From positions 1-39,612 of the IMG/VR virus record IMGVR_UViG_3300022933_000010: a stretch of 39,612 nt of DNA; one strand, 5' to 3'. A program made the translations under genes and the position numbers. Below are positions 1,358-32,441 of the stretch, piece after piece (the stretch's first letter is position 1; each line of letters starts with the position of its first letter). Origin of the DNA: a virus. The notes under the pieces were generated by a model. It was not told the origin of the DNA and did not search any database. It saw only the letters and a list, made by a program, of their open reading frames with translations.

Positions 1358-2066
1358 TAAAATCTTCCGCTTTCATTGGTTTGGTTCTTTCTTTTTCATC
1401 AAATTTTAGGTCATGATACATGTCCAATCTTTTGAGAAACTCATGTTTATAGCGCCTTAATTCAGGTCCTTCTATTTTAAATTCTTGATAATATAGGTCA
1501 GGCGTGCATACCATGATAACTCCCTGCCTAATTTCAGATTTGTAGACATAGTCGTGTGCCATGGCGTATGCTGCAATTTGCAAATAATAATCTTCGATCC
1601 ATTCTTTCTTCTTCGGACGATTGGCCTGCTTGAAGTCAACAATAGTTTCCATGCCATTGTGTGAGCATACAAGATCTGTTGAGCCTGCGTACAGCCCCGG
1701 ATAGTGTAACGTAACTTCCGAACCATAATACTCTTCAACGGGTAATAAACCCACTTCAATAATCTTTTCAGCCATCGGTTTAGCTTCCGTCCCAATGGGC
1801 GATAGATCATCGTATCCAACTCCTGTGACGTGACATTCCAGGAATTTATGCATGGAAGTCCCACGTTTACTACTATGATTCTTGATCTGTTCTGCTTTTT
1901 CATGGCCTACCTTTTTTTGCCACTGCTTTATAAAACTTTGATCTTTTGTCAATCCTAAAATGGTTGTAACAGACGGCAATCTTTCTCCGCCAAAGTCATA
2001 GAGCCGTGTTCCGTGATGCTCGTACATCTGTCCGGACATATATCTATATCGATCACTCTTCTTCAT
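1332..2066 (-). CDS. PD-(D/E)XK exonuclease (RecB/Cas4-like)
   Basis: A 244-residue nuclease. Visible signatures are LPSVTTIL near the N-terminus (30-37), E117, D131 in GSTD, IVDFKQ carrying D144 and K146, and Q163 in YLQIAAYA. These fit the PD-(D/E)XK core and the QxxxY-type motif of phage 5'-3' exonucleases. It probably degrades host DNA or processes ends in recombination and replication. It is coupled by ATGA to the 2OG oxygenase gene upstream. The last eight or so residues appear to have been replaced during insertion of the HNH block: an older C-terminus survives at 391-429. Confidence 0.88.
   Translation of the reverse strand: MKKSDRYRYMSGQMYEHHGTRLYDFGGERLPSVTTILGLTKDQSFIKQWQKKVGHEKAEQIKNHSSKRGTSMHKFLECHVTGVGYDDLSPIGTEAKPMAEKIIEVGLLPVEEYYGSEVTLHYPGLYAGSTDLVCSHNGMETIVDFKQANRPKKKEWIEDYYLQIAAYAMAHDYVYKSEIRQGVIMVCTPDLYYQEFKIEGPELRRYKHEFLKRLDMYHDLKFDEKERTKPMKAEDFNVQEDKTK
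1356..1394. repeat. 39-bp direct repeat, right copy (inside the exonuclease gene)
   Basis: Partner of 391-429, offset by 965 bp. Here the repeat encodes part of the exonuclease C-terminus (KERTKPMKAEDFN), after which the present protein continues with VQEDKTK rather than the K-stop of the left copy. Confidence 0.85.
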
Positions 2067-2752
2067 TTTTTTGCATTTTTTAAATATTTAGGTGCGAAAT
2101 TTATAACATTATTTATAGGGACTTGGTCATGAAAGTTACCACTCACACTGATTCGTGTACAATCAGATTTGTAAGGCGCAACGTAATGTTTCAACCAAGA
2201 AGGAAAAATAAACATATCTCCTTTTTTAGGAGAAAAAGATAATGTAGTTACTGCATCTCTTGGTCCTTCTCCATATAAAAATTGTATTCCTCCAGGTCCA
2301 CAAGATTTACCTACATAATTTTTTTGTTCTTCTTCTAATTTTTTTGGCATATCAAGATAGATAACAAACGACAATCTACCATCATGATCGTGTGGTGGAT
2401 TATACTCGTGTTGTTTTTGATAATTTATCCAGAGTGCTGATAACACATACTCAGGTTTTGTTTCATAAGGTTTGCTTTGATACCTTTCAAAAGCTTGATC
2501 ATAGACCCCTATAAACTGGGAAAGTCTTGGTAATATTAACTTTTTTGACTCTTCAGAATAACCTATCTCTTCTTTAATTTGTCCTGCAAGTTTATCTCTG
2601 TAGTCTTGTTTACCTTTTTTACCTTCTTTTATAAGTAAATCTATAAATGCATCATCACATTTAAAATGTGTAACACAAGGTCCCCAATTAAATATAGATA
2701 ATTTTATTTGTTCTTCTTCATTCTTCTTCATACATTCTCTTTTCTTCTTCAT
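2063..2752 (-). CDS. 2OG-Fe(II) oxygenase (phage type)
   Basis: A 229-residue protein with the phage 2OG-Fe(II) dioxygenase pattern: PPHDHDG (His121, His123, Asp124), then LSFVIYLDMP, then GDMFIFPSWLKHYV (His189) and R200 in TRISVSGNF, where the last arginine would bind 2-oxoglutarate. Substrate unknown. ATG at 2752 is taken as the start, but the Met eight codons in is equally possible because neither has a clear SD. It lies between the exonuclease and an endonuclease-linked small gene. It is one of six such enzymes in the window. Confidence 0.85.
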   Translation of the reverse strand: MKKKRECMKKNEEEQIKLSIFNWGPCVTHFKCDDAFIDLLIKEGKKGKQDYRDKLAGQIKEEIGYSEESKKLILPRLSQFIGVYDQAFERYQSKPYETKPEYVLSALWINYQKQHEYNPPHDHDGRLSFVIYLDMPKKLEEEQKNYVGKSCGPGGIQFLYGEGPRDAVTTLSFSPKKGDMFIFPSWLKHYVAPYKSDCTRISVSGNFHDQVPINNVINFAPKYLKNAKK

Positions 2753-15915: not shown

Positions 15916-16388
15916 ACTAAATCTACTGCTCTACCAATAATAGGCTTGTATTTAGTTTTCTTATCTTCACGGTAAGCCCGCATGTATTGATGTCTAGGGT
16001 TAAAAGGTATGTAACTTGCGTGAATCCACCCCGAATTAGGTTCTCCAGGCGTGTAGTATTCGAGTATCAATTGATCTGTCTCTAAATTTTGTTTTATCCA
16101 ATCCGCTACTTCAGCATTGTCAACTCCCATACATTCGAAATCAACCGCCTCAGCTTTTGAGTGCTGACTAGTTAAACTTGATCCTATGGCTGTGCACAGC
16201 TCAGGAGAACGGAATCCGCTGGTCACTTTAACTCTACCAAATTGATCACGCACTGGCTGTAAAATATTTTCACACAATGCTTTTAATTTATCTATTTGAT
16301 CAGCATTGGGTTCATTATTAATGCCCTTACGTATAGCCGTGTCTGATTTAATAAGCTCTTGCAAGCTAAAATTACGAGATAGTTTCAT
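15912..16388 (-). CDS. Peptidase M15 endolysin (zinc D-Ala-D-Ala carboxypeptidase-like)
   Basis: 158 residues. Zinc ligands and catalytic region: SGFRSPELCTAIG (57-69), SQHSKAEAVDFE with His76 and Asp83, and GWIHASY with His123. This is the M15A-type fold used by many phages to cut cell-wall peptides. No signal peptide, so release needs a holin; the XhlA-like gene at 16894-17073 is the candidate. ATGA-coupled to the 2OG oxygenase gene in between. Confidence 0.92.
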   Translation of the reverse strand: MKLSRNFSLQELIKSDTAIRKGINNEPNADQIDKLKALCENILQPVRDQFGRVKVTSGFRSPELCTAIGSSLTSQHSKAEAVDFECMGVDNAEVADWIKQNLETDQLILEYYTPGEPNSGWIHASYIPFNPRHQYMRAYREDKKTKYKPIIGRAVDLV

Positions 16389-16897
16389 TTTATTTTAAAA
16401 ATAATGTTTAAGTTTAATCTTACTTTGTCTTCTTTGCAAGAAATACCTTTGTGTAATAAATTGCTTTCAAAAATTTTTGCTTGACCCATTTTGTCTTTAA
16501 AAGTTTTACCATCTATCTCTGTTCCACCATCCGTTGTATGTAGATTATAAATTATTGTTTGACATTTATCTGCAACAGGCCAATCTCTGTGATTCTCAGA
16601 GTGACTTGGAGTAAAGTATAAATTCCAAAAAAATCTATGAGGCTCTGTTTTAATATTTAATTTTTTACTTACTTCATCTAATATTAATTGAGCATATTCA
16701 TTTAATTCTTGAAATTGATTTTCAAAATCAGAACCTTCTTGATAAGTAACATTTTGTAATCCAGTGTTATAAGACATTAATGATTCTAATTGTGACAAAT
16801 TTATATCATCTTTAGATACAAACCAATTTTCTTTTGTAACTAAATCTAATATTTTTAAATTAGTTTCTTGTGGTAAAATATCGTTTAAAATTTTCAT
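16385..16897 (-). CDS. 2OG-Fe(II) oxygenase within the lysis module
   Basis: 170 residues with a clean iron-binding triad: HRD (His103, Asp105) in ENHRDWPV, His149 in NLLHKGI, and Arg160 in KVRLNLNI for 2-oxoglutarate. GGTEIDGKTF sits between, as in prolyl-hydroxylase-like folds. Substrate unknown. It is placed between the holin candidate and the endolysin, coupled on both sides by ATGA, so it is co-expressed with lysis genes. It might modify a cell-envelope or virion target, but nothing proves this. Confidence 0.85.
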   Translation of the reverse strand: MKILNDILPQETNLKILDLVTKENWFVSKDDINLSQLESLMSYNTGLQNVTYQEGSDFENQFQELNEYAQLILDEVSKKLNIKTEPHRFFWNLYFTPSHSENHRDWPVADKCQTIIYNLHTTDGGTEIDGKTFKDKMGQAKIFESNLLHKGISCKEDKVRLNLNIIFKIK

Positions 16898-25481: not shown

Positions 25482-25646
25482 TTAGTTTACAAAAAAGTTA
25501 AACGCATCAATCTCATCTTTTAAGTCTGCTTGAAACGTTGAGTTTAGTTTTTCTACAATTGCATCAAGATCTCTTACTTGAGCTTCTGCTGTTTCTATAG
25601 TATAATCTCGTTCAGGTCTTGTAATTACTTGTACAATTTTTGCCAT
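25482..25646 (-). CDS. Small helical virion-operon protein (54 aa)
   Basis: ATG at 25646 overlaps the upstream stop (TAATG) and the frame ends at 25482. The product (opening MAKIVQVITRPERDYTIETA) has a beta start and then one long acidic helix, and ends in FNFFVN. Function unknown; likely a chaperone or minor virion part by position. Confidence 0.66.
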   Translation of the reverse strand: MAKIVQVITRPERDYTIETAEAQVRDLDAIVEKLNSTFQADLKDEIDAFNFFVN

Positions 25647-27823
25647 TATCTTCTACCATCCGGTTGTGTATCTAATCTAAAAGTACCTAGTTTCCAACTT
25701 TGACTAGCTGCTGTGTTTTCTATTTTCATAGCAATTGATCTTGCTCTTGCACGTGTGTCTACTTTTGTAGTAGAGGTTGTTATATCAAAAGGTCCAAGTG
25801 GTGAACCAGTTTGTGAATCATTAGGATAGTTTTTTAATTGTAATGTAACTCTAGTAGTTCCTGTTTGTGATATGAAGTCAGGTACAAATCTTCTTATTTT
25901 CATTAAATATTCACCATCTCCTTTAAAAGTTGCAATACCTGTTTGAGTTCCTTGAGCAGATCTTGCTTGTGTTATATCAAAATCTCCTGACGAAATGTTT
26001 GCAGTAACTGCAGTGATTACTCCGTTTTTATTTTGATCAGTTCCAATTTCGTGTTCATAATAAGTTGTCATACCTTCTGTGTTTCCAACTACATCAAAAG
26101 AACTATCAGTGCCTGCATCGTATTCTGTTGCATGTGGACTACCAAAAACTGCTGAGTCTTTCCACATAGTTCTAGATAAAGATCCATTTGCCCATACAGG
26201 TCTTTGAGGAGAAGAATCAAAATAATTATATGAAACCATTCTATTTACAACAGCTGAGGAAGACGTTGGGTAAAACCATATTACTTCACCAAACAAATTA
26301 TTTAATCCAGCAGATATCATTTGATTACCTGACTCTATATTTATATCATCATAAACATAGTCCTCTACTAAACAAGGTAAAGACTCTAGTCTACCAGCAA
26401 ATCTAAAGAAACCATTTTCTGACATCCAGTACGCAGCACCATCAACTTCAACACAAGCATTCTGTCCTACAAGTCCACAGTTGGTCCCAACTTGTGCAAA
26501 GGCAAAAGTAAATGGTTGACCAACAAAACGTTGAGTGAACAATGCAGTATCAGTCCAAACATAAATTGCATCTCTACCTCTAATAGCTCCCATGATCCGT
26601 GATCCGTCGGCCAGTCTCTGTGTACCAGCTGTATTGGTTGCTGTAGGTGTATAAGTATTAATATCCTCTTGGTCCGAGAATCTAATAAACATTTCATCTT
26701 GTGTTAATGGATCACCAATAGTTGTTTCTGTTCCAAAAAATACTAAGTGTCTATCAGGAGTAGATACTAACATATGACGTGAAGATGTTGGTGCACCTGA
26801 TATAATTGTAGCTCTAGTTGCTGTTGCATTTGATGAAGAAGAGTCCCATTCAAAACAAGCGTTGTTGTGAATTAAACAAATAGCTTTGTCTCCAAAGTTA
26901 TCTAATGACCACATACCCGGTTCAACAATTAAATCTCCTGACGCTGCTTCTCCCCATGCAACATAGTCAGTTGAGTTTGTAACTGTATCTCCATCACTGT
27001 GAGATGCTGCTGTTGTTCCTGCTACACCTCTAGTACACCCTGTTAAAGTATTACTACTAACTCCTGTGTATGAAATTTCTTCTGAACCTATTATAATAAA
27101 ATTAGTTCCACTGTCTGGAAACTGTGAAGCATCTGATAGTGTAATACTAGTTACTGCAGCGTTGATTGCTCCATCTAAAGTTGTTGTTACTGCTCCTGCA
27201 GCAGGACCACTCCAAGAACCTAAACCAAAACCAAAACCTTTTCCTTGAACAGATGGACCTACTGTATAATAATGTTGAATTCTAATACCTCCAGATGTGG
27301 TTGCACCACTACCTGTTTCATTTGATGGCATTGTAATTGTTATAGTTGTTGTAGAAGGCACCGATGTTACCATAAATTTTTTATCGTCAAAATCTGATGC
27401 ACTAAAATTAGAATTAGTTATTGTTGTAAAATTATCTAAAAGAATAATATCATTATCTGTCATATTATGTGCAGAAGGAAAAGTTATAGTAACAGTGGGA
27501 GATCCATTAGTTGTGCTGAAAGCATTACTAAGAGTAGTTGTAGTATCTATGGGGTGTATGTCGTAGAATACTCCACCTGAATATGCATATAAAATACTGT
27601 TTGTACCTATGATTGCGTACTTTCTACCTAAGCTGTTTACAAAATGATGTAGTCCTCTGGCTGCTCCAGTTAGATCATCTGTTCCTAACTGTTTCCATCC
27701 ACCTATTTTTTCAGGTGTGCCATATCTAAAACGTACATTATCACAATCTACCCATTGTCCTTCAGCAGTAGTTTCTGATATTTGTTTATTGATGCCTGGT
27801 TGGAATCCAATTTTTTGTAGCAT
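25646..27823 (-). CDS. Large beta-rich tail or portal-vertex protein (725 aa)
   Basis: Start taken at ATG 27823, giving MLQKIGFQPGINKQ; the frame extends 40 codons farther but into hydrophobic, atypical sequence. After it come EGQWVDCDNVRFRYGTPEK and IGGWKQL, an opening I know from podovirus-like marine phages. The rest is Thr/Ser/Gly-rich beta sequence with repeated Trp-containing motifs, compatible with a beta-propeller such as P22 gp10 or a tail-hub protein. No strong SD. Its start is 34 bp from the divergent halogenase island. Confidence 0.68.
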   Translation of the reverse strand: MLQKIGFQPGINKQISETTAEGQWVDCDNVRFRYGTPEKIGGWKQLGTDDLTGAARGLHHFVNSLGRKYAIIGTNSILYAYSGGVFYDIHPIDTTTTLSNAFSTTNGSPTVTITFPSAHNMTDNDIILLDNFTTITNSNFSASDFDDKKFMVTSVPSTTTITITMPSNETGSGATTSGGIRIQHYYTVGPSVQGKGFGFGLGSWSGPAAGAVTTTLDGAINAAVTSITLSDASQFPDSGTNFIIIGSEEISYTGVSSNTLTGCTRGVAGTTAASHSDGDTVTNSTDYVAWGEAASGDLIVEPGMWSLDNFGDKAICLIHNNACFEWDSSSSNATATRATIISGAPTSSRHMLVSTPDRHLVFFGTETTIGDPLTQDEMFIRFSDQEDINTYTPTATNTAGTQRLADGSRIMGAIRGRDAIYVWTDTALFTQRFVGQPFTFAFAQVGTNCGLVGQNACVEVDGAAYWMSENGFFRFAGRLESLPCLVEDYVYDDINIESGNQMISAGLNNLFGEVIWFYPTSSSAVVNRMVSYNYFDSSPQRPVWANGSLSRTMWKDSAVFGSPHATEYDAGTDSSFDVVGNTEGMTTYYEHEIGTDQNKNGVITAVTANISSGDFDITQARSAQGTQTGIATFKGDGEYLMKIRRFVPDFISQTGTTRVTLQLKNYPNDSQTGSPLGPFDITTSTTKVDTRARARSIAMKIENTAASQSWKLGTFRLDTQPDGRR

Positions 27824-27857
27824 GATAGTCTTTTTTATGTTAATATTCCTCATTATA

Positions 27858-28361
27858 ATGAAGAAAGCTACTGCGGTCAATAAATATAAAATAGTCGAAA
27901 ATTTCCTTCCTCTGGATATTTTTAAAGAAGTACAAAAAATCATAACCTTTGAGCTGTCTTATTTTTATAAAAAAGGCAATGGATCTTTAAAAAAGGATGA
28001 TCTCTATCATTTTGTTCATTTTTTATATTTTGAAAATACTATACGAAGTAATTTTTTTGAAAAGCTATTGACACCTATTATGACTAGAATCGATCACACA
28101 TCTATAATTAGAGCAAAAGTAAATTGTTATCCATCTACTGAAACTCAATATACTCATGCAAAACATCAAGATTATCCTTTTCCTCATAAAGGATTAATAT
28201 TTCATATTAATAATAACAATGGATATACTATTCTAGAAGACGGAACTAAGATTGAAAGTATTGAAAATAGGGCCGTATTTTTTGATACTAGCAAACTACA
28301 TCAAAGCACAACGTGTACCGATAAACACTTGCGTTTAAATATTAATATTAACTACGTATAA
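27858..28361 (+). CDS. 2OG-Fe(II) oxygenase, first gene of the halogenase island
   Basis: 167 residues from ATG 27858; other in-frame Met codons upstream (27837) lack an SD too, so the start is uncertain. Catalytic residues: HQD (His103, Asp105) in AKHQDYPF, His148 in TSKLHQS and Arg159 in HLRLNINI. GYTILEDGTKIE sits between them as in hydroxylase cupin folds. Substrate unknown. It leads a tightly coupled plus-strand operon, opposite to all surrounding virion genes. TAATG overlap with the next gene. Confidence 0.8.
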   Translation: MKKATAVNKYKIVENFLPLDIFKEVQKIITFELSYFYKKGNGSLKKDDLYHFVHFLYFENTIRSNFFEKLLTPIMTRIDHTSIIRAKVNCYPSTETQYTHAKHQDYPFPHKGLIFHINNNNGYTILEDGTKIESIENRAVFFDTSKLHQSTTCTDKHLRLNININYV

Positions 28362-28894
28362 TGCAAGATTTAGAATTTAAAATAGAAAAAACAGTCAAGA
28401 TTGTTTCTGGTGACATAACAGATATGGAATTATGTGATCGTTTAATAGAAAAAATAAAATACAATATTGATCCAACATTAAGTTTTAAAACAAATGTCCC
28501 ACATATGACTTCTTTTAAAAGGTTTAATGGAGATCCTGACTTCCACCTTTTTTTAAAATCGATTCAATCAGATATTAAAAAGATTTATAAGCATTCTTTT
28601 ATTATTGAAAATTCATGGGGAGTGTTAATGAATAAAGGAGATTCAACACATAATCATGCTCATATACAAACTTCTGCTTTTTGTGGACTATTATATCTTA
28701 CAACCGGTGGCCCAGGAACAAGTTTTGAAGAAATAAAAAAAGTAATTAATCCAATCAAAGGTAGATATATTTTATTTGACCCTATCCTCCTACATTTTGT
28801 AAACCGTTCTGATTTAGATAAAAGATACAGTTTAGCTTTTAATATGGATCAAATAAAAAAATGGGATAATCTAGACTTTAGTAAAAAAGTATGA
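28361..28894 (+). CDS. 2OG-Fe(II) oxygenase, second gene of the halogenase island
   Basis: 177 residues. The iron site looks like the phage type with HNHAH (97-101) after WGVLMNKGDS, then GLLYLTTGG, then His145 in PILLHFV and Arg155 in KRYSLAFN. Similar spacing is seen in the 2063-2752 and 30854-31456 proteins. Substrate unknown. ATGA coupling to the halogenase that follows implies joint production, so it may act on the same substrate or on its product. Confidence 0.8.
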   Translation: MQDLEFKIEKTVKIVSGDITDMELCDRLIEKIKYNIDPTLSFKTNVPHMTSFKRFNGDPDFHLFLKSIQSDIKKIYKHSFIIENSWGVLMNKGDSTHNHAHIQTSAFCGLLYLTTGGPGTSFEEIKKVINPIKGRYILFDPILLHFVNRSDLDKRYSLAFNMDQIKKWDNLDFSKKV

Positions 28895-30303
28895 AGATAA
28901 ATATCTTAGGAGCTGGAACTTCAGGGTTAGTAACGGCTTTAATTTTAAAAACAAAATTTCCTAATTATAATATAAATATTATTAAATCTGATAAAATAGG
29001 TATCATAGGAGTTGGAGAAGGGTCCACAGAACATTGGTCTGAGTTTACAAATTATGTAGGGATTAAATTTAAAGACTTACTTAAAGAAACTGGAGCTACA
29101 TTAAAATCAGGTGTTATGTTTGAAGGTTGGACCAAAGAACCTTTCCTTCATTCTGTTAATGGAGATTTTAGTAAAGAAGCTGGAGATTACCTATATCTGT
29201 ATGCAAATTTAATAGCCAGAAACATTAATGCAAAATATATGTGTTATCAAAATTTTTATGATAATAAATTCATAAAACAAGATTATAGTAATTTAGTTCT
29301 TCAATTTCATTTTGATACTTTTAAATTAAATACTTTTTTAAATAAAGTATGTATAGAGAAAAATATAAACATTATTGAAGATGATATTAAAGATGCTATT
29401 AAAAACGATTTAGGTGAGATAAAACATTTAGTAGGACAGAAACAAAATTATGACGCTGATTTATTTATTGATTGTAGTGGGTTTTTTGGATTCTTATTAA
29501 AAAAACATTTAAAGGTCCCTTATATTTCTTATCAAAAATATTTACCTGTAGATAGTGCATTTGCTTTTCCTTCTCCAAAAGAAGAAAAACGAAATGCTTG
29601 GACTCTGTCAAGAACCATGAATAGTGGTTGGCATTGGAAAACACCTACTCAAGATAGATTAGGTAATGGATATGTTTATAGTTCAAGTCATATAACAGAG
29701 GATAAAGCACTAGAAGAAATACAAAAATTATATGGTGACAAGATAAAAATAGCAAAATCATTTAAATTTCAAGCAGGTAGAGTAAAAACATTTTGGTATA
29801 AAAATGTTGTAGCAATAGGAGTGTCCGCTGGATTTGTTGAACCTTTAGAAGCGACTTCAATTGGAAGCACTATACAGCAAGCTTTTTGTTTAAATCAATT
29901 TTTGCCTTCTTTAGACAAAAAATCTTTTAATAAACACACTGAATATTTATATGAAAATCTAATGGAATTTGTACACGCACATTATCTTACAAAAAGACAA
30001 GATACTGAATTTTGGAAAGATGTGCAAAACTTGCCCATAATGGAGGGTGTACAAGAACTAATGGAAATTGCAAAAATAAGAATGATTAGAAATACTGATT
30101 TTAATATGGGCTGGCATATGTTTAAAGCTCCTAATTGGGTAATTTTATTTCATGCTTTAGGTTTGTTTAATACAGAGAATATTAAAAAAGAATTAAACGC
30201 CTCTCCTGTTTTAAAAAGTTTTGCAGAAATGGAACACGAAGAGTTGTTTAGTTTTTCAAAAGAATATATAGATCATGACCAAGTTATTAAGGAATCAATA
30301 TGA
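28891..30303 (+). CDS. Flavin-dependent (tryptophan-type) halogenase
   Basis: 470 residues. FAD-binding GAGTSG at 7-12, and GVGEGSTEHW following. Lys72 in ATLKSGVMFE aligns with the catalytic lysine of PrnA/RebH-type enzymes. GWHWKTP (246-252) is the GWxWxIP halogenase signature with Thr for Ile, and FVEPLEATS (315-323) holds the second active-site acid. Such enzymes use FADH2, O2 and halide to halogenate an electron-rich ring. A viral halogenase (VirX1, cyanophage Syn10) is known, with no established natural substrate. No flavin reductase is visible, so the host would supply FADH2. Coupled by ATGA on both sides to 2OG oxygenases. Confidence 0.93.
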   Translation: MKINILGAGTSGLVTALILKTKFPNYNINIIKSDKIGIIGVGEGSTEHWSEFTNYVGIKFKDLLKETGATLKSGVMFEGWTKEPFLHSVNGDFSKEAGDYLYLYANLIARNINAKYMCYQNFYDNKFIKQDYSNLVLQFHFDTFKLNTFLNKVCIEKNINIIEDDIKDAIKNDLGEIKHLVGQKQNYDADLFIDCSGFFGFLLKKHLKVPYISYQKYLPVDSAFAFPSPKEEKRNAWTLSRTMNSGWHWKTPTQDRLGNGYVYSSSHITEDKALEEIQKLYGDKIKIAKSFKFQAGRVKTFWYKNVVAIGVSAGFVEPLEATSIGSTIQQAFCLNQFLPSLDKKSFNKHTEYLYENLMEFVHAHYLTKRQDTEFWKDVQNLPIMEGVQELMEIAKIRMIRNTDFNMGWHMFKAPNWVILFHALGLFNTENIKKELNASPVLKSFAEMEHEELFSFSKEYIDHDQVIKESI

Positions 30304-30851
30304 AACAAATTTATGATTACATAGAAGTCCAAAATGTTTTGGATAAAGATTTTTGTAATAATTTAATATGCTCACTAAATCAAAGAGAATGGTCAGCCCA
30401 CACGTGGTCAGATACAACGGGAAAAGAAGTAGGTTCTAGAGATAAAGAAGAGTTAGAAGTTATGTCCGCAAAAGAAGAAGGAGTTCCTTTACAAAAATTA
30501 GTTATTGAATGTTGCAGGGAATATAGAAAAAAACACGTTGGGGACTATTCTTGGATTAAATCTTTTAGTGAAATAAGATTTAATAAGTATGTAACAGGCA
30601 CTAATATGAATAGTCATATTGATCATATTCATTCTATATTTGATGGAGTGCATAAAGGTATTCCAATTATTTCTGTTGTAGGATTGTTAAATGATGACTA
30701 TAAAGGGGGAGAGTTTATGTTTAACAAAGAATATAAAGTAGAATTAAAACAAGGAGATATTTTATTATTTCCAAGTAATTTTTTATATCCTCATAGAGTA
30801 AATAATATTAGAGAAGGAACACGTTATTCATTTGTAACTTGGGGTTTTTAA
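30300..30851 (+). CDS. 2OG-Fe(II) oxygenase, prolyl-4-hydroxylase-like
   Basis: 183 residues. This is the most canonical of the set: SHIDHIHS (His106, Asp108), ISVVGLLNDDYKGGEFMF, GDILLFPSNFLYPHRV (His165) and Arg175 in TRYSFVTWGF, the C-terminal pattern of P4Hc-type hydroxylases. An N-terminal AHTWSDTTGKE region may bind substrate. ATGA coupling to the halogenase, then 2 bp to the next gene. Hydroxylation of a peptide or small molecule is the expected type of chemistry. Confidence 0.86.
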   Translation: MKQIYDYIEVQNVLDKDFCNNLICSLNQREWSAHTWSDTTGKEVGSRDKEELEVMSAKEEGVPLQKLVIECCREYRKKHVGDYSWIKSFSEIRFNKYVTGTNMNSHIDHIHSIFDGVHKGIPIISVVGLLNDDYKGGEFMFNKEYKVELKQGDILLFPSNFLYPHRVNNIREGTRYSFVTWGF

Positions 30852-30853
30852 TT

Positions 30854-31456
30854 ATGGCAAAAGTATTAGAATTATTTTCACAACCTGTATATTTAGCAGA
30901 TGATAAATACGTAATGGATGATAATGAAAAAGAATCTTTTAAAAATGTAGCAGCGCTTGAAAATTTATTAAATCATACAAGTAAAAATAAAATGTGGCTA
31001 GAGCAAGAAAATTTAAAAAATCTAAAAAAGTTTATATTAGATAATGTAAAAAACTTTCATCACAATATAATAGGTTACGATAAAAGAATAGAACTATATA
31101 TAACTCAATCGTGGCTTACAATGAGTAAACCTGGAGAAGGACATCACTTACATCGACACCCTAATAGTATTTATAGCGGAGTATATTATATAACCGGAGA
31201 GCATACTGAAACTCGTTTTCATAGTCCAAACAAAGACATGCAACAAGTTGTTTTTGAAAAAGAAAAAGAAACTTGTTATTTAGAAGAAATACTAACTGTA
31301 AAAGCAGAGCAAGGTAATTTAATTATTTTTCCTTCTCAATTATCTCATGATGTACTTGCCAATCCAAGTAAAAAAGTAAGAACTACTTTATCTTTTAACA
31401 CATGGTTTAGAGGAGAAGTTGGAATGTACGATAGATTGAACAATTTAAAGATATAG
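30854..31456 (+). CDS. 2OG-Fe(II) oxygenase, phage type
   Basis: 200 residues from ATG 30854, two bases after the previous stop; an in-frame Met at 30839 would extend it into the previous gene. Pattern: GEGHHLHRHPNSIYSGVYYI (His98/100/102), then FHSP, then GNLIIFPSQLSHDV (His165) and Arg176 in KVRTTLSFNTW. It is the PF13759-like type common in cyanophages and pelagiphages. Fourth oxygenase in this operon. Confidence 0.85.
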   Translation: MAKVLELFSQPVYLADDKYVMDDNEKESFKNVAALENLLNHTSKNKMWLEQENLKNLKKFILDNVKNFHHNIIGYDKRIELYITQSWLTMSKPGEGHHLHRHPNSIYSGVYYITGEHTETRFHSPNKDMQQVVFEKEKETCYLEEILTVKAEQGNLIIFPSQLSHDVLANPSKKVRTTLSFNTWFRGEVGMYDRLNNLKI

Positions 31457-31469
31457 TATATAACAAGGT

Positions 31470-31694
31470 ATGCAAATTAGACAACTAAAACCAGGTAATA
31501 TTAAATTTGATTTTTCTTGGAAAGAAAGACTTAAAATATTTTTTAAAGGAGAAGTTTTTTTAAATTTTGATACATCAAAAAGTTTTATTGACTCTTTTGT
31601 ACACACAATTATTACATTTAATACGAACCTTCCTGAAAAATATCAGAACAGATTAAGTGACGAAAACACTAAAATTGATTTAACTAAAGAATAA
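31470..31694 (+). CDS. Small protein closing the halogenase island operon (74 aa)
   Basis: Starts 13 bp after the previous stop with AAGG upstream. The product opens MQIRQLKPGNIKFDFSWKER and continues LKIFFKGEVFLNF, with a polar tail. The pattern of a short basic N-terminus plus WKERLKIFFKG suggests a membrane-surface helix. No family assigned. As the last gene in the operon it could be a partner, a carrier or a substrate; there is no evidence to choose. It ends exactly where the convergent gene ends. Confidence 0.6.
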   Translation: MQIRQLKPGNIKFDFSWKERLKIFFKGEVFLNFDTSKSFIDSFVHTIITFNTNLPEKYQNRLSDENTKIDLTKE

Positions 31695-32441
31695 TTATTT
31701 ATAACTTTTTCGGTTCCAGATTTTATTACTATAATAATTAAATTTTTCTGTAAGAAGACTACTAGAAACAGTAGGTTCTCCTTCTTCTATTTTCATTTTC
31801 CAACTCTCTCTTTTAAAAGGAATAATTTGACAATATGGAGTTCCTTTTTTAATAATAGAAAAATACTTTCCGTTTTTAACTTGTTTTAAAAGATAGTCTT
31901 TTTTTAAAATAAAAGGAAAGTTAATATATTCTTTATAAGCATCCGTATCTACTATACCACTAATGATTTCAAACCTATCATCAACTCTATTTATAGGTGG
32001 AGTAAATAAACAAGAATAGCCAGAAGGAGTATATATTTTCCAAGGGTTATGAAATTTCATACCAGGGAAATTAAAATTTTTTTTTAATTGTGGTGAACCT
32101 TCAAATTGACGAGGAGGGTGTATCTGACGTCCCATATTAGCGTTTATATTTATTTCACTAAACCTTGGGTCATTAGAAAAATCTTCAAAAGAAGATTTTA
32201 CATATATTTCTAATTTACCTTTCTCTACTTCAGTTATTTCAAGATAAAACTCTTGAGGTGTAGTTAGCATATACCCAGTGGTCATTGAATCTGCAAAAGG
32301 TTTACATCCTTTTATAGTGGTTCTGTTAGGGTGATGTTTAAGTTTTTTATACCAATCAGGTAAAAAATTATTAGAGAGTTGAGGTCTGTCTTCAAAATTT
32401 TTTAGATAAATGTCGGGAGCAACAAATTGAATATCTTTCAT
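31695..32441 (-). CDS. Phage conserved protein, DUF6065-like, facing the halogenase operon
   Basis: 248 residues. Recognisable blocks: LPDWYKKL (about 28-35), TIKGCKPFADSMTTGYML, FHNPWKIYTPSGYSCLFTPP, and GTPYCQIIPFKRESW near the end. I know this family from cyanophages and other marine phages, often near oxygenase genes, and it may be what is called DUF6065; function unknown. It lies on the minus strand with its 3' end abutting the halogenase operon, so it may belong to the same island rather than to the virion operon. Gene size is normal for the family. Confidence 0.7.
   Translation of the reverse strand: MKDIQFVAPDIYLKNFEDRPQLSNNFLPDWYKKLKHHPNRTTIKGCKPFADSMTTGYMLTTPQEFYLEITEVEKGKLEIYVKSSFEDFSNDPRFSEININANMGRQIHPPRQFEGSPQLKKNFNFPGMKFHNPWKIYTPSGYSCLFTPPINRVDDRFEIISGIVDTDAYKEYINFPFILKKDYLLKQVKNGKYFSIIKKGTPYCQIIPFKRESWKMKIEEGEPTVSSSLLTEKFNYYSNKIWNRKSYK

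Follow-up and report, generated by a model that had tools for sequence, protein, structure and literature searches.

The window analysed here is a 39.6-kb record of the IMG/VR database (G000). In its DNA polymerase and structural genes it comes nearest to pelagiphages of the HTVC023P/HTVC027P group and to 023Pt_psg01; judged by these genes, the source phage is a pelagiphage of the HTVC023P type. On the plus strand, positions 27858-31456 carry a cassette of five translationally coupled genes (P0001 to P0005), which encode in order two 2-oxoglutarate (2OG) oxygenases, a flavin halogenase and two further 2OG oxygenases. The five open reading frames (ORFs) were located exactly where an earlier note on this DNA had placed them, and the stop/start overlaps that it claimed are present (TAATG at 28361, ATGA at 28891 and 30300). 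All cassette genes are under purifying selection, with pairwise ratios of non-synonymous to synonymous substitution (dN/dS) of about 0.03-0.36.

P0003 is clearly predicted to be a PrnA-type flavin-dependent halogenase. It belongs to family PF04820 with 324.9 bits against a curated cut-off of 21, it carries the flavin adenine dinucleotide (FAD)-binding motif GAGTSG, and the PrnA-type catalytic residues K72 and E320 are invariant among the relatives aligned. The WxWxIP motif reads WHWKTP in the window, with Ile changed to Thr, and WNWKIP in the related locus L009. Its relatives in the PDB are PrnA, RebH and VirX1. Bacterial homologues reach 35% at best, on an Actinomycetota contig from a metagenome-assembled genome, and mostly 27-33% in Alteromonadales, Caulobacterales and others. 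A short halogenase-like class of 370-390 amino acids (L135, L144, L158, L264, L371) keeps the Lys and the Glu, but not the full WxWxIP motif. Some phage contigs hold many 2OG genes and between 3 and 6 halogenases within 15-17 kb (L044, L048, L054, L057, L058, L061, L065, L069, L077, L078, L080, L092), and in several of the multi-halogenase contigs Gly-rich proteins rich in His and Trp adjoin.

Among the oxygenases, P0004 and P0005 have clear Pfam matches, P0002 lies just above the Pfam cut-off, and P0001 falls below it (0.08 against PF13640). The AlphaFold model of P0001 (predicted local distance difference test, pLDDT, 92) has its best PDB matches among prolyl hydroxylases (PHD2 and prolyl 4-hydroxylase, P4H), and H103-x-D105, H148 and R159 are conserved across 60 relatives; on this model the protein would be a 2OG-Fe(II) oxygenase with a prolyl-hydroxylase-like double-stranded beta-helix fold. 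For P0002, P0004 and P0005 the beta-helix fold is predicted solely from Pfam or PDB sequence matches. The earlier note had held that a joint pathway would be unlikely if the oxygenases lacked intact iron ligands: the metal triad and the 2OG-binding Arg are present in P0001 and P0004, whereas the picture is not plain for P0002 and P0005, which have HxH where HxD is expected. In P0002 the HxH and the distal His/Arg are retained in L009. The 2OG calls made across phages come from profiles built up with the window genes as the starting point, and the His...His...Arg spacing occurs in 319 of 350 full-length 2OG calls, compared with 79 of 412 other ORFs.

Two database labels were set aside in the course of this assignment. 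The label "DNA endonuclease V" (T4 endonuclease V) of phrog_274 was rejected for P0001 because its model has a 2OG oxygenase fold. The label "ferrochelatase" appears wrong for an oxygenase-like family, a single family across phages, with an RHKD (HxD-like) motif and no Pfam match, whose 2OG identity rests on iterated profiles. Marine-phage entries under these two labels (phrog_274, phrog_3531, HTVC023P gp67, HTVC008M AGE60402.1) seem rather to represent families of 2OG oxygenases. Beyond the cassette, the window has two further 2OG-like genes, at 16385-16897 (-) and about 2063-2752 (-); one of them adjoins the endolysin (phrog_274), and one stands in the early region (own-profile match only).

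The gene set is conserved as a unit in independent relatives. An identical cassette is found in L008, a 55.7-kb contig, and the loci L009, L010 and L019-L022, with 73-76% halogenase identity, show the same gene order as the window. In these loci gene 1 is followed by an additional, methyltransferase-like gene, and two relatives have a fifth 2OG oxygenase. The methyltransferase-like gene (4252-4743 in L009) is linked through TAATG overlaps to genes 1 and 2 on either side, and it is absent from the window. A survey of 73 non-redundant phage halogenase loci showed a 2OG gene no further than 60 nt away in 43, at least two 2OG genes within 3 kb in 39, and at least two halogenases in 22. The density of 2OG genes near phage halogenases falls from 0.70/kb within 1 kb to 0.07/kb at 7-8 kb, and it is 0.011/kb in DNA polymerase control loci (80 loci, 533 kb, which together contain six 2OG genes but neither a halogenase nor a Gly-rich gene). 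As a joint set of enzymes in fixed order, the cassette is real and recurs in marine phages, where halogenase and 2OG oxygenases are linked beyond chance with a density that falls with distance.

Cultured relatives have oxygenases but no halogenase at the corresponding site, next to the stopper gene (phrog_3287). Among stopper-anchored loci whose upstream flank spans at least 4 kb, a first set had 2OG genes upstream in 40 of 44 loci (mean 4.0) and a halogenase in 6 of 44, and a second set had 2OG arrays in 51 of 55 and a halogenase in 4 of 55. The site upstream of the stopper is a hotspot in the HTVC023P-type lineage, and the halogenase is an optional member of it. A fixed halogenase/four-oxygenase pathway is rejected because array membership is modular.

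Upstream of the arrays lie genes for tail fibres and for a Gly-rich protein (phrog_2295, PF21722). The match to PF21722 is strong for L118 (4e-17) and weak for the window protein P0011 (0.0085, below cut-off), and the adhesin of L107 has no sequence match in the PDB. P0011 has a core with 9.2% Pro and the loops TGRPGGHGFFGVW and GGASPHSPDQPR; in the window clade, four members (the window, L009, L021 and L022) retain both loop His residues, those of GGHGFFGV and of PHxP. A Gly-rich tail gene lies within 1.5 kb of the array in 24 of 25 and in 27 of 27 non-redundant loci, against permutation expectations of 19 and 14 (p=0.003 and <0.001), whereas the median distance of Gly-rich genes to the array is not significant (p=0.67 and 0.08); proximity taken alone is therefore moderate evidence. 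Among cultured phages, HTVC008M has a halogenase, an oxygenase array and, adjoining the array, a Gly-rich adhesin with a Gly-His-Trp loop (AGE60399.1, 297 amino acids, 33% Gly, loop GGLGHWDQN). HTVC023P has the enzymes linked below to Cys and Pro, its gp66 being 84% identical to the Cys-linked oxygenase, and its Gly-rich proteins reach 2.6% Cys and 11.5% Pro. In S-H38 a halogenase occurs along with a Gly-rich protein whose His and Trp contents are 4.3% and 2.1%.

The composition of this adhesin covaries with the enzymes beside it, and the covariation is residue-specific and replicated. In the discovery set, drawn from the pelagiphage lineage, His makes up 1.33% of adhesin cores at loci that have a halogenase but 0.50% at loci lacking one (p=0.001). 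His was the only residue of 20 with p below 0.05, and other proteins of the discovery loci showed no His difference by halogenase presence. The His test was fixed after discovery and before the replication sets. In the first replication, with new stopper-anchored loci (4 vs 23), His was 1.09% vs 0.39% (one-sided p=0.033). In the second, 45 new loci found through their halogenase were set against the halogenase-free loci of the other sets taken together, which means that the two sides differ in sampling. His was 1.03% in the former and 0.43% in the latter (p=2.9e-9; the residue next in rank had p=0.02). When each adhesin was paired with its nearest halogenase-free relative by adhesin, His was higher in 55 of 66 pairs (6e-9; unique pairs 23/27), and by stopper in 36 of 43 (1.5e-6; unique pairs 36/40). 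His is raised in all six halogenase sequence clusters, one of which comprises 59 of the 66 adhesins. The dipeptide Gly-His occurs in 48 of 66 adhesins with a halogenase and in 9 of 55 without (5e-10); the shared His of KIHTF is found in both classes, and the excess consists of Gly-flanked His in varied contexts, with no single motif. Trp and Tyr were considered as halogenase targets in pelagiphages and showed no enrichment there, while over all phages Trp increases with halogenase number.

Comparable links were found for some of the oxygenases. Where one PF13759 family is present, adhesins contain 1.35% Cys, compared with 0.30% otherwise (5e-12); the difference is significant in all three sets taken singly, and Cys is higher in 29 of 29 unique pairs matched by stopper. 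Adhesins are richer in Pro, at about 7% vs 4%, where either of two P4H-like families occurs (5e-6 and 1e-4), and p-values down to 6e-7 were obtained for the P4H-like families; for the first of the two families Pro is higher in 20 of 26 stopper-matched pairs, and in joint regression only this family keeps a clear Pro effect. With a looser clustering cut P0004 joins a Pro-linked cluster (110 loci, Pro 6.7% vs 2.7%), the P0001 group has a weak Gln link only, and most other testable 2OG families have no residue link. The enzyme-by-residue table is near-diagonal, and in other proteins of the same loci no enzyme-residue entry is stronger than p about 0.01.

We consider it likely, with appreciable room for doubt, that the enzymes of the cassette modify the receptor-binding Gly-rich adhesin after translation, by halogenation and hydroxylation of residues in its loops. 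The halogenase would put a halogen on exposed Gly-flanked loop His and possibly, in T4-like phages, on Trp as well. Oxidation of other residues would fall to the 2OG oxygenases, with one PF13759 family acting on Cys and the P4H-like families on Pro; the prolyl-hydroxylase-like fold of the P0001 model is in keeping with such a role. By gaining, losing and shuffling the hotspot enzymes along with the matching residues, phages would obtain a tip chemistry beyond the 20 amino acids. We lean, with a little less assurance, towards the wider idea of a second chemical code on the adhesin, in which a modular array assigns one residue type to each enzyme family (His halogenation, Cys oxidation, Pro hydroxylation) and genes and targets are gained and lost together. 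The adhesin as substrate and the atoms modified are what we infer from these patterns, and the benefit may lie in receptor binding, stability or escape from host resistance.

Several points weigh against this proposal. To our knowledge, there is no precedent for His as a target of a flavin halogenase. Two loci without a halogenase (L330, L373) have His-rich adhesins, and in three of the four loci with the short halogenase-like protein only, the adhesin is His-poor, which suggests that the short class acts on another substrate; the long/short split was made post hoc, with the data already seen. Some of the Cys signal comes from a segment that recurs at the N terminus (ICATGG...ECGSFKIHTF), and a single adhesin subtype contributes heavily to the Pro contrast. 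P0001, P0002 and P0005 are not firmly tied to any residue. The window cassette stands on the strand opposite to the adhesin, an orientation seen also in HTVC027P and two other loci, and would therefore be expressed separately. Finally, and this is the main caution, adhesin and array are adjacent and possibly co-inherited, and because such neighbours may share descent, the independent events are fewer than the loci; matching the loci by adhesin and by stopper reduces the effect of shared descent.

The same adjacency is the basis of the alternative that survives best, in which adhesin subtype and enzyme set are haplotypes travelling together in a recombination hotspot, so that the enzymes act elsewhere and composition simply marks the adhesin lineage. 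The location of part of the Cys signal in a shared segment is in keeping with it. The signal persists, however, after adhesin and stopper matching with unique pairs, it recurs in three locus sets with one residue per enzyme, and the His contexts are varied, and we regard such a linkage artefact as improbable. A little less probable again is the biosynthesis of a halogenated, hydroxylated small molecule, or the decoration of a surface glycan, during infection. A small-molecule reading was proposed for jumbo cyanophages (Iyer et al., 2021; PMC7824862), the halogenase is grouped with carbamoyltransferase, kinase and nucleotidyltransferase genes in S-SSM6a and S-SSM7, and a carbamoyltransferase stands at the end of the L056 array. 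However, the pelagiphage arrays examined hold no scaffold-making, loading or transport genes, and a free product gives no cause for residue-specific adhesin covariation. The earlier note had spoken of a small biosynthetic or modification pathway; its joint multi-enzyme set stands, while a free-product pathway is disfavoured because of the tail hotspot, the modular membership and the residue-by-residue covariation with the adjacent adhesin. Among the candidate substrates listed there, a virion protein fits best. Host-directed use, in which 2OG enzymes consume 2-oxoglutarate or modify host components, is very unlikely, since it predicts neither the tail-adhesin clustering, nor the halogenase, nor the residue matching, although 2OG oxygenases are frequent in cyanophages and a tuning of NtcA signalling in cyanobacteria has been proposed (Sullivan et al., 2010; PMC3037559).

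The statement that no phage system of this set had been described proved partly wrong. A halogenated metabolite cluster with 2OG enzymes has been predicted in the jumbo cyanophage S-SSM6a (Iyer et al., 2021; PMC7824862), and 2OG-Fe(II) "partner" auxiliary metabolic genes with "ferrochelatases", read as metabolic and of untraced origin, are known from HTVC023P-type pelagiphages (Wittmers et al., 2022; PMC9599517). The S-SSM6a cluster likewise has a phage flavin halogenase adjoining 2OG oxygenases, and in the sister phage S-SSM7 the cluster lies beside neck genes; unlike the window it includes a carbamoyltransferase and sugar enzymes, and it was interpreted as a secondary metabolite or capsule system. 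This carbamoyltransferase/sugar enzyme core is absent from window positions 27858-32441; the cassette consists only of oxygenases and the halogenase, in a small podovirus-type genome and tied to a Gly-rich adhesin. The arrays of Wittmers and others share the phage lineage and the enzyme class, including the "ferrochelatase" label, but the main text of that paper mentions neither a halogenase nor a tail fibre. VirX1 of cyanophage Syn10 (PDB 6QGM) is also a phage PrnA-type halogenase, matched by P0003 at 8.5e-37; it is, in contrast, a standalone enzyme studied in vitro with small molecules, and its native substrate is not established (PMC8407142).

On the adhesin side, the gp38 proteins of phages S16 and PP01 have a polyglycine-II tip scaffold whose protruding hypervariable loops bind the host receptor (PMC12892980). 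The window adhesin resembles them in its Gly-rich tip, by composition, Pfam and position and not by a PDB match, whereas the described gp38 system has no modifying enzymes. Prolyl 4-hydroxylases (PHD2, and the Pseudomonas putida P4H acting on EF-Tu) share the fold of the P0001 model, but at a sequence identity of 10-18%, and the function of P0001 is predicted from the model. In the literature searched, which comprised neither subscription papers nor preprints, no link between such enzymes and a tail adhesin and no enzyme-residue pairing was found. What appears new is the coupling of enzymes to adhesin residues; the gene families themselves are known.

If the proposal is true, the abundance of 2OG oxygenases in marine phages, many of which are annotated as ferrochelatases or as genes of DNA repair or metabolism, would have a shared purpose, and the native substrate of phage halogenases would be explained. 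Phages of the most abundant bacteria of the ocean would then diversify host recognition by a chemistry outside the genetic code, and the arrays would represent a library of residue-specific, protein-directed halogenases and hydroxylases. The cultured phages HTVC008M, HTVC023P and S-H38 make the adhesin-tailoring idea directly testable.

Table 1. Cassette genes and neighbouring features of the window.
Feature	Position	Strand	Assignment	Matches and remarks
P0001	27858..28361	+	Predicted 2OG-Fe(II) oxygenase, phrog_274 type, prolyl-hydroxylase-like fold	phrog_274 2.9e-35
P0002	28361..28894	+	Predicted PF13759 oxygenase with HxH motif	PF13759 3.3e-6; phrog_81 2.2e-14
P0003	28891..30303	+	Predicted flavin-dependent (PrnA-type) halogenase	PF04820 1.1e-96
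P0004	30300..30851	+	Predicted PF13640 2OG oxygenase related to PiuC	PF13640 6.8e-12; PiuC 1.5e-5
P0005	30854..31456	+	Predicted PF13759 oxygenase with HxH motif	PF13759 3.8e-22; solved relatives 3BVC, 2RG4
P0006	31470..31694	+	74-amino-acid protein, function not assigned	Seen only in the window cassette clade
P0007	31695..32441	-	DUF6065 protein	phrog_7084 4e-41; PF19541 7e-4 (below cut-off)
P0011	32928..33623	-	Gly-rich tail adhesin (gp38-like), proposed substrate	phrog_863 tail fiber assembly 2e-7
Stopper gene	25646..27823	-	Virion structural protein	phrog_3287 1e-101; borders the hotspot
Sigma-70-like site	27852..27880	-	TTGACC-17-TATAAT, 11/12	Positioned to read the stopper gene; not above chance overall

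Promoters and terminators showed no clear excess over shuffled sequence. P0006 is conserved in L009, L010, L019, L021 and L022 (dN/dS about 0.03-0.15) and has no phage match in INPHARED. It was considered as the precursor of a ribosomally synthesised and post-translationally modified peptide, and it is not a convincing one because it is conserved over its whole length, without a variable core, and confined to the window clade. Genes of the P0007 type (DUF6065) are present in 12 further halogenase- or stopper-anchored loci outside that clade. They were seen beside halogenase/2OG arrays in L044, L045, L053, L056, L071, L078, L090, L100, L110, L119 and L124, and they occur also in haloviruses. 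The P0007 model (pLDDT 80) matches dUTPases weakly (best E 9e-4, template-modelling score 0.3-0.4), and the conserved Cys and His of DUF6065 suggest a role other than that of a dUTPase.

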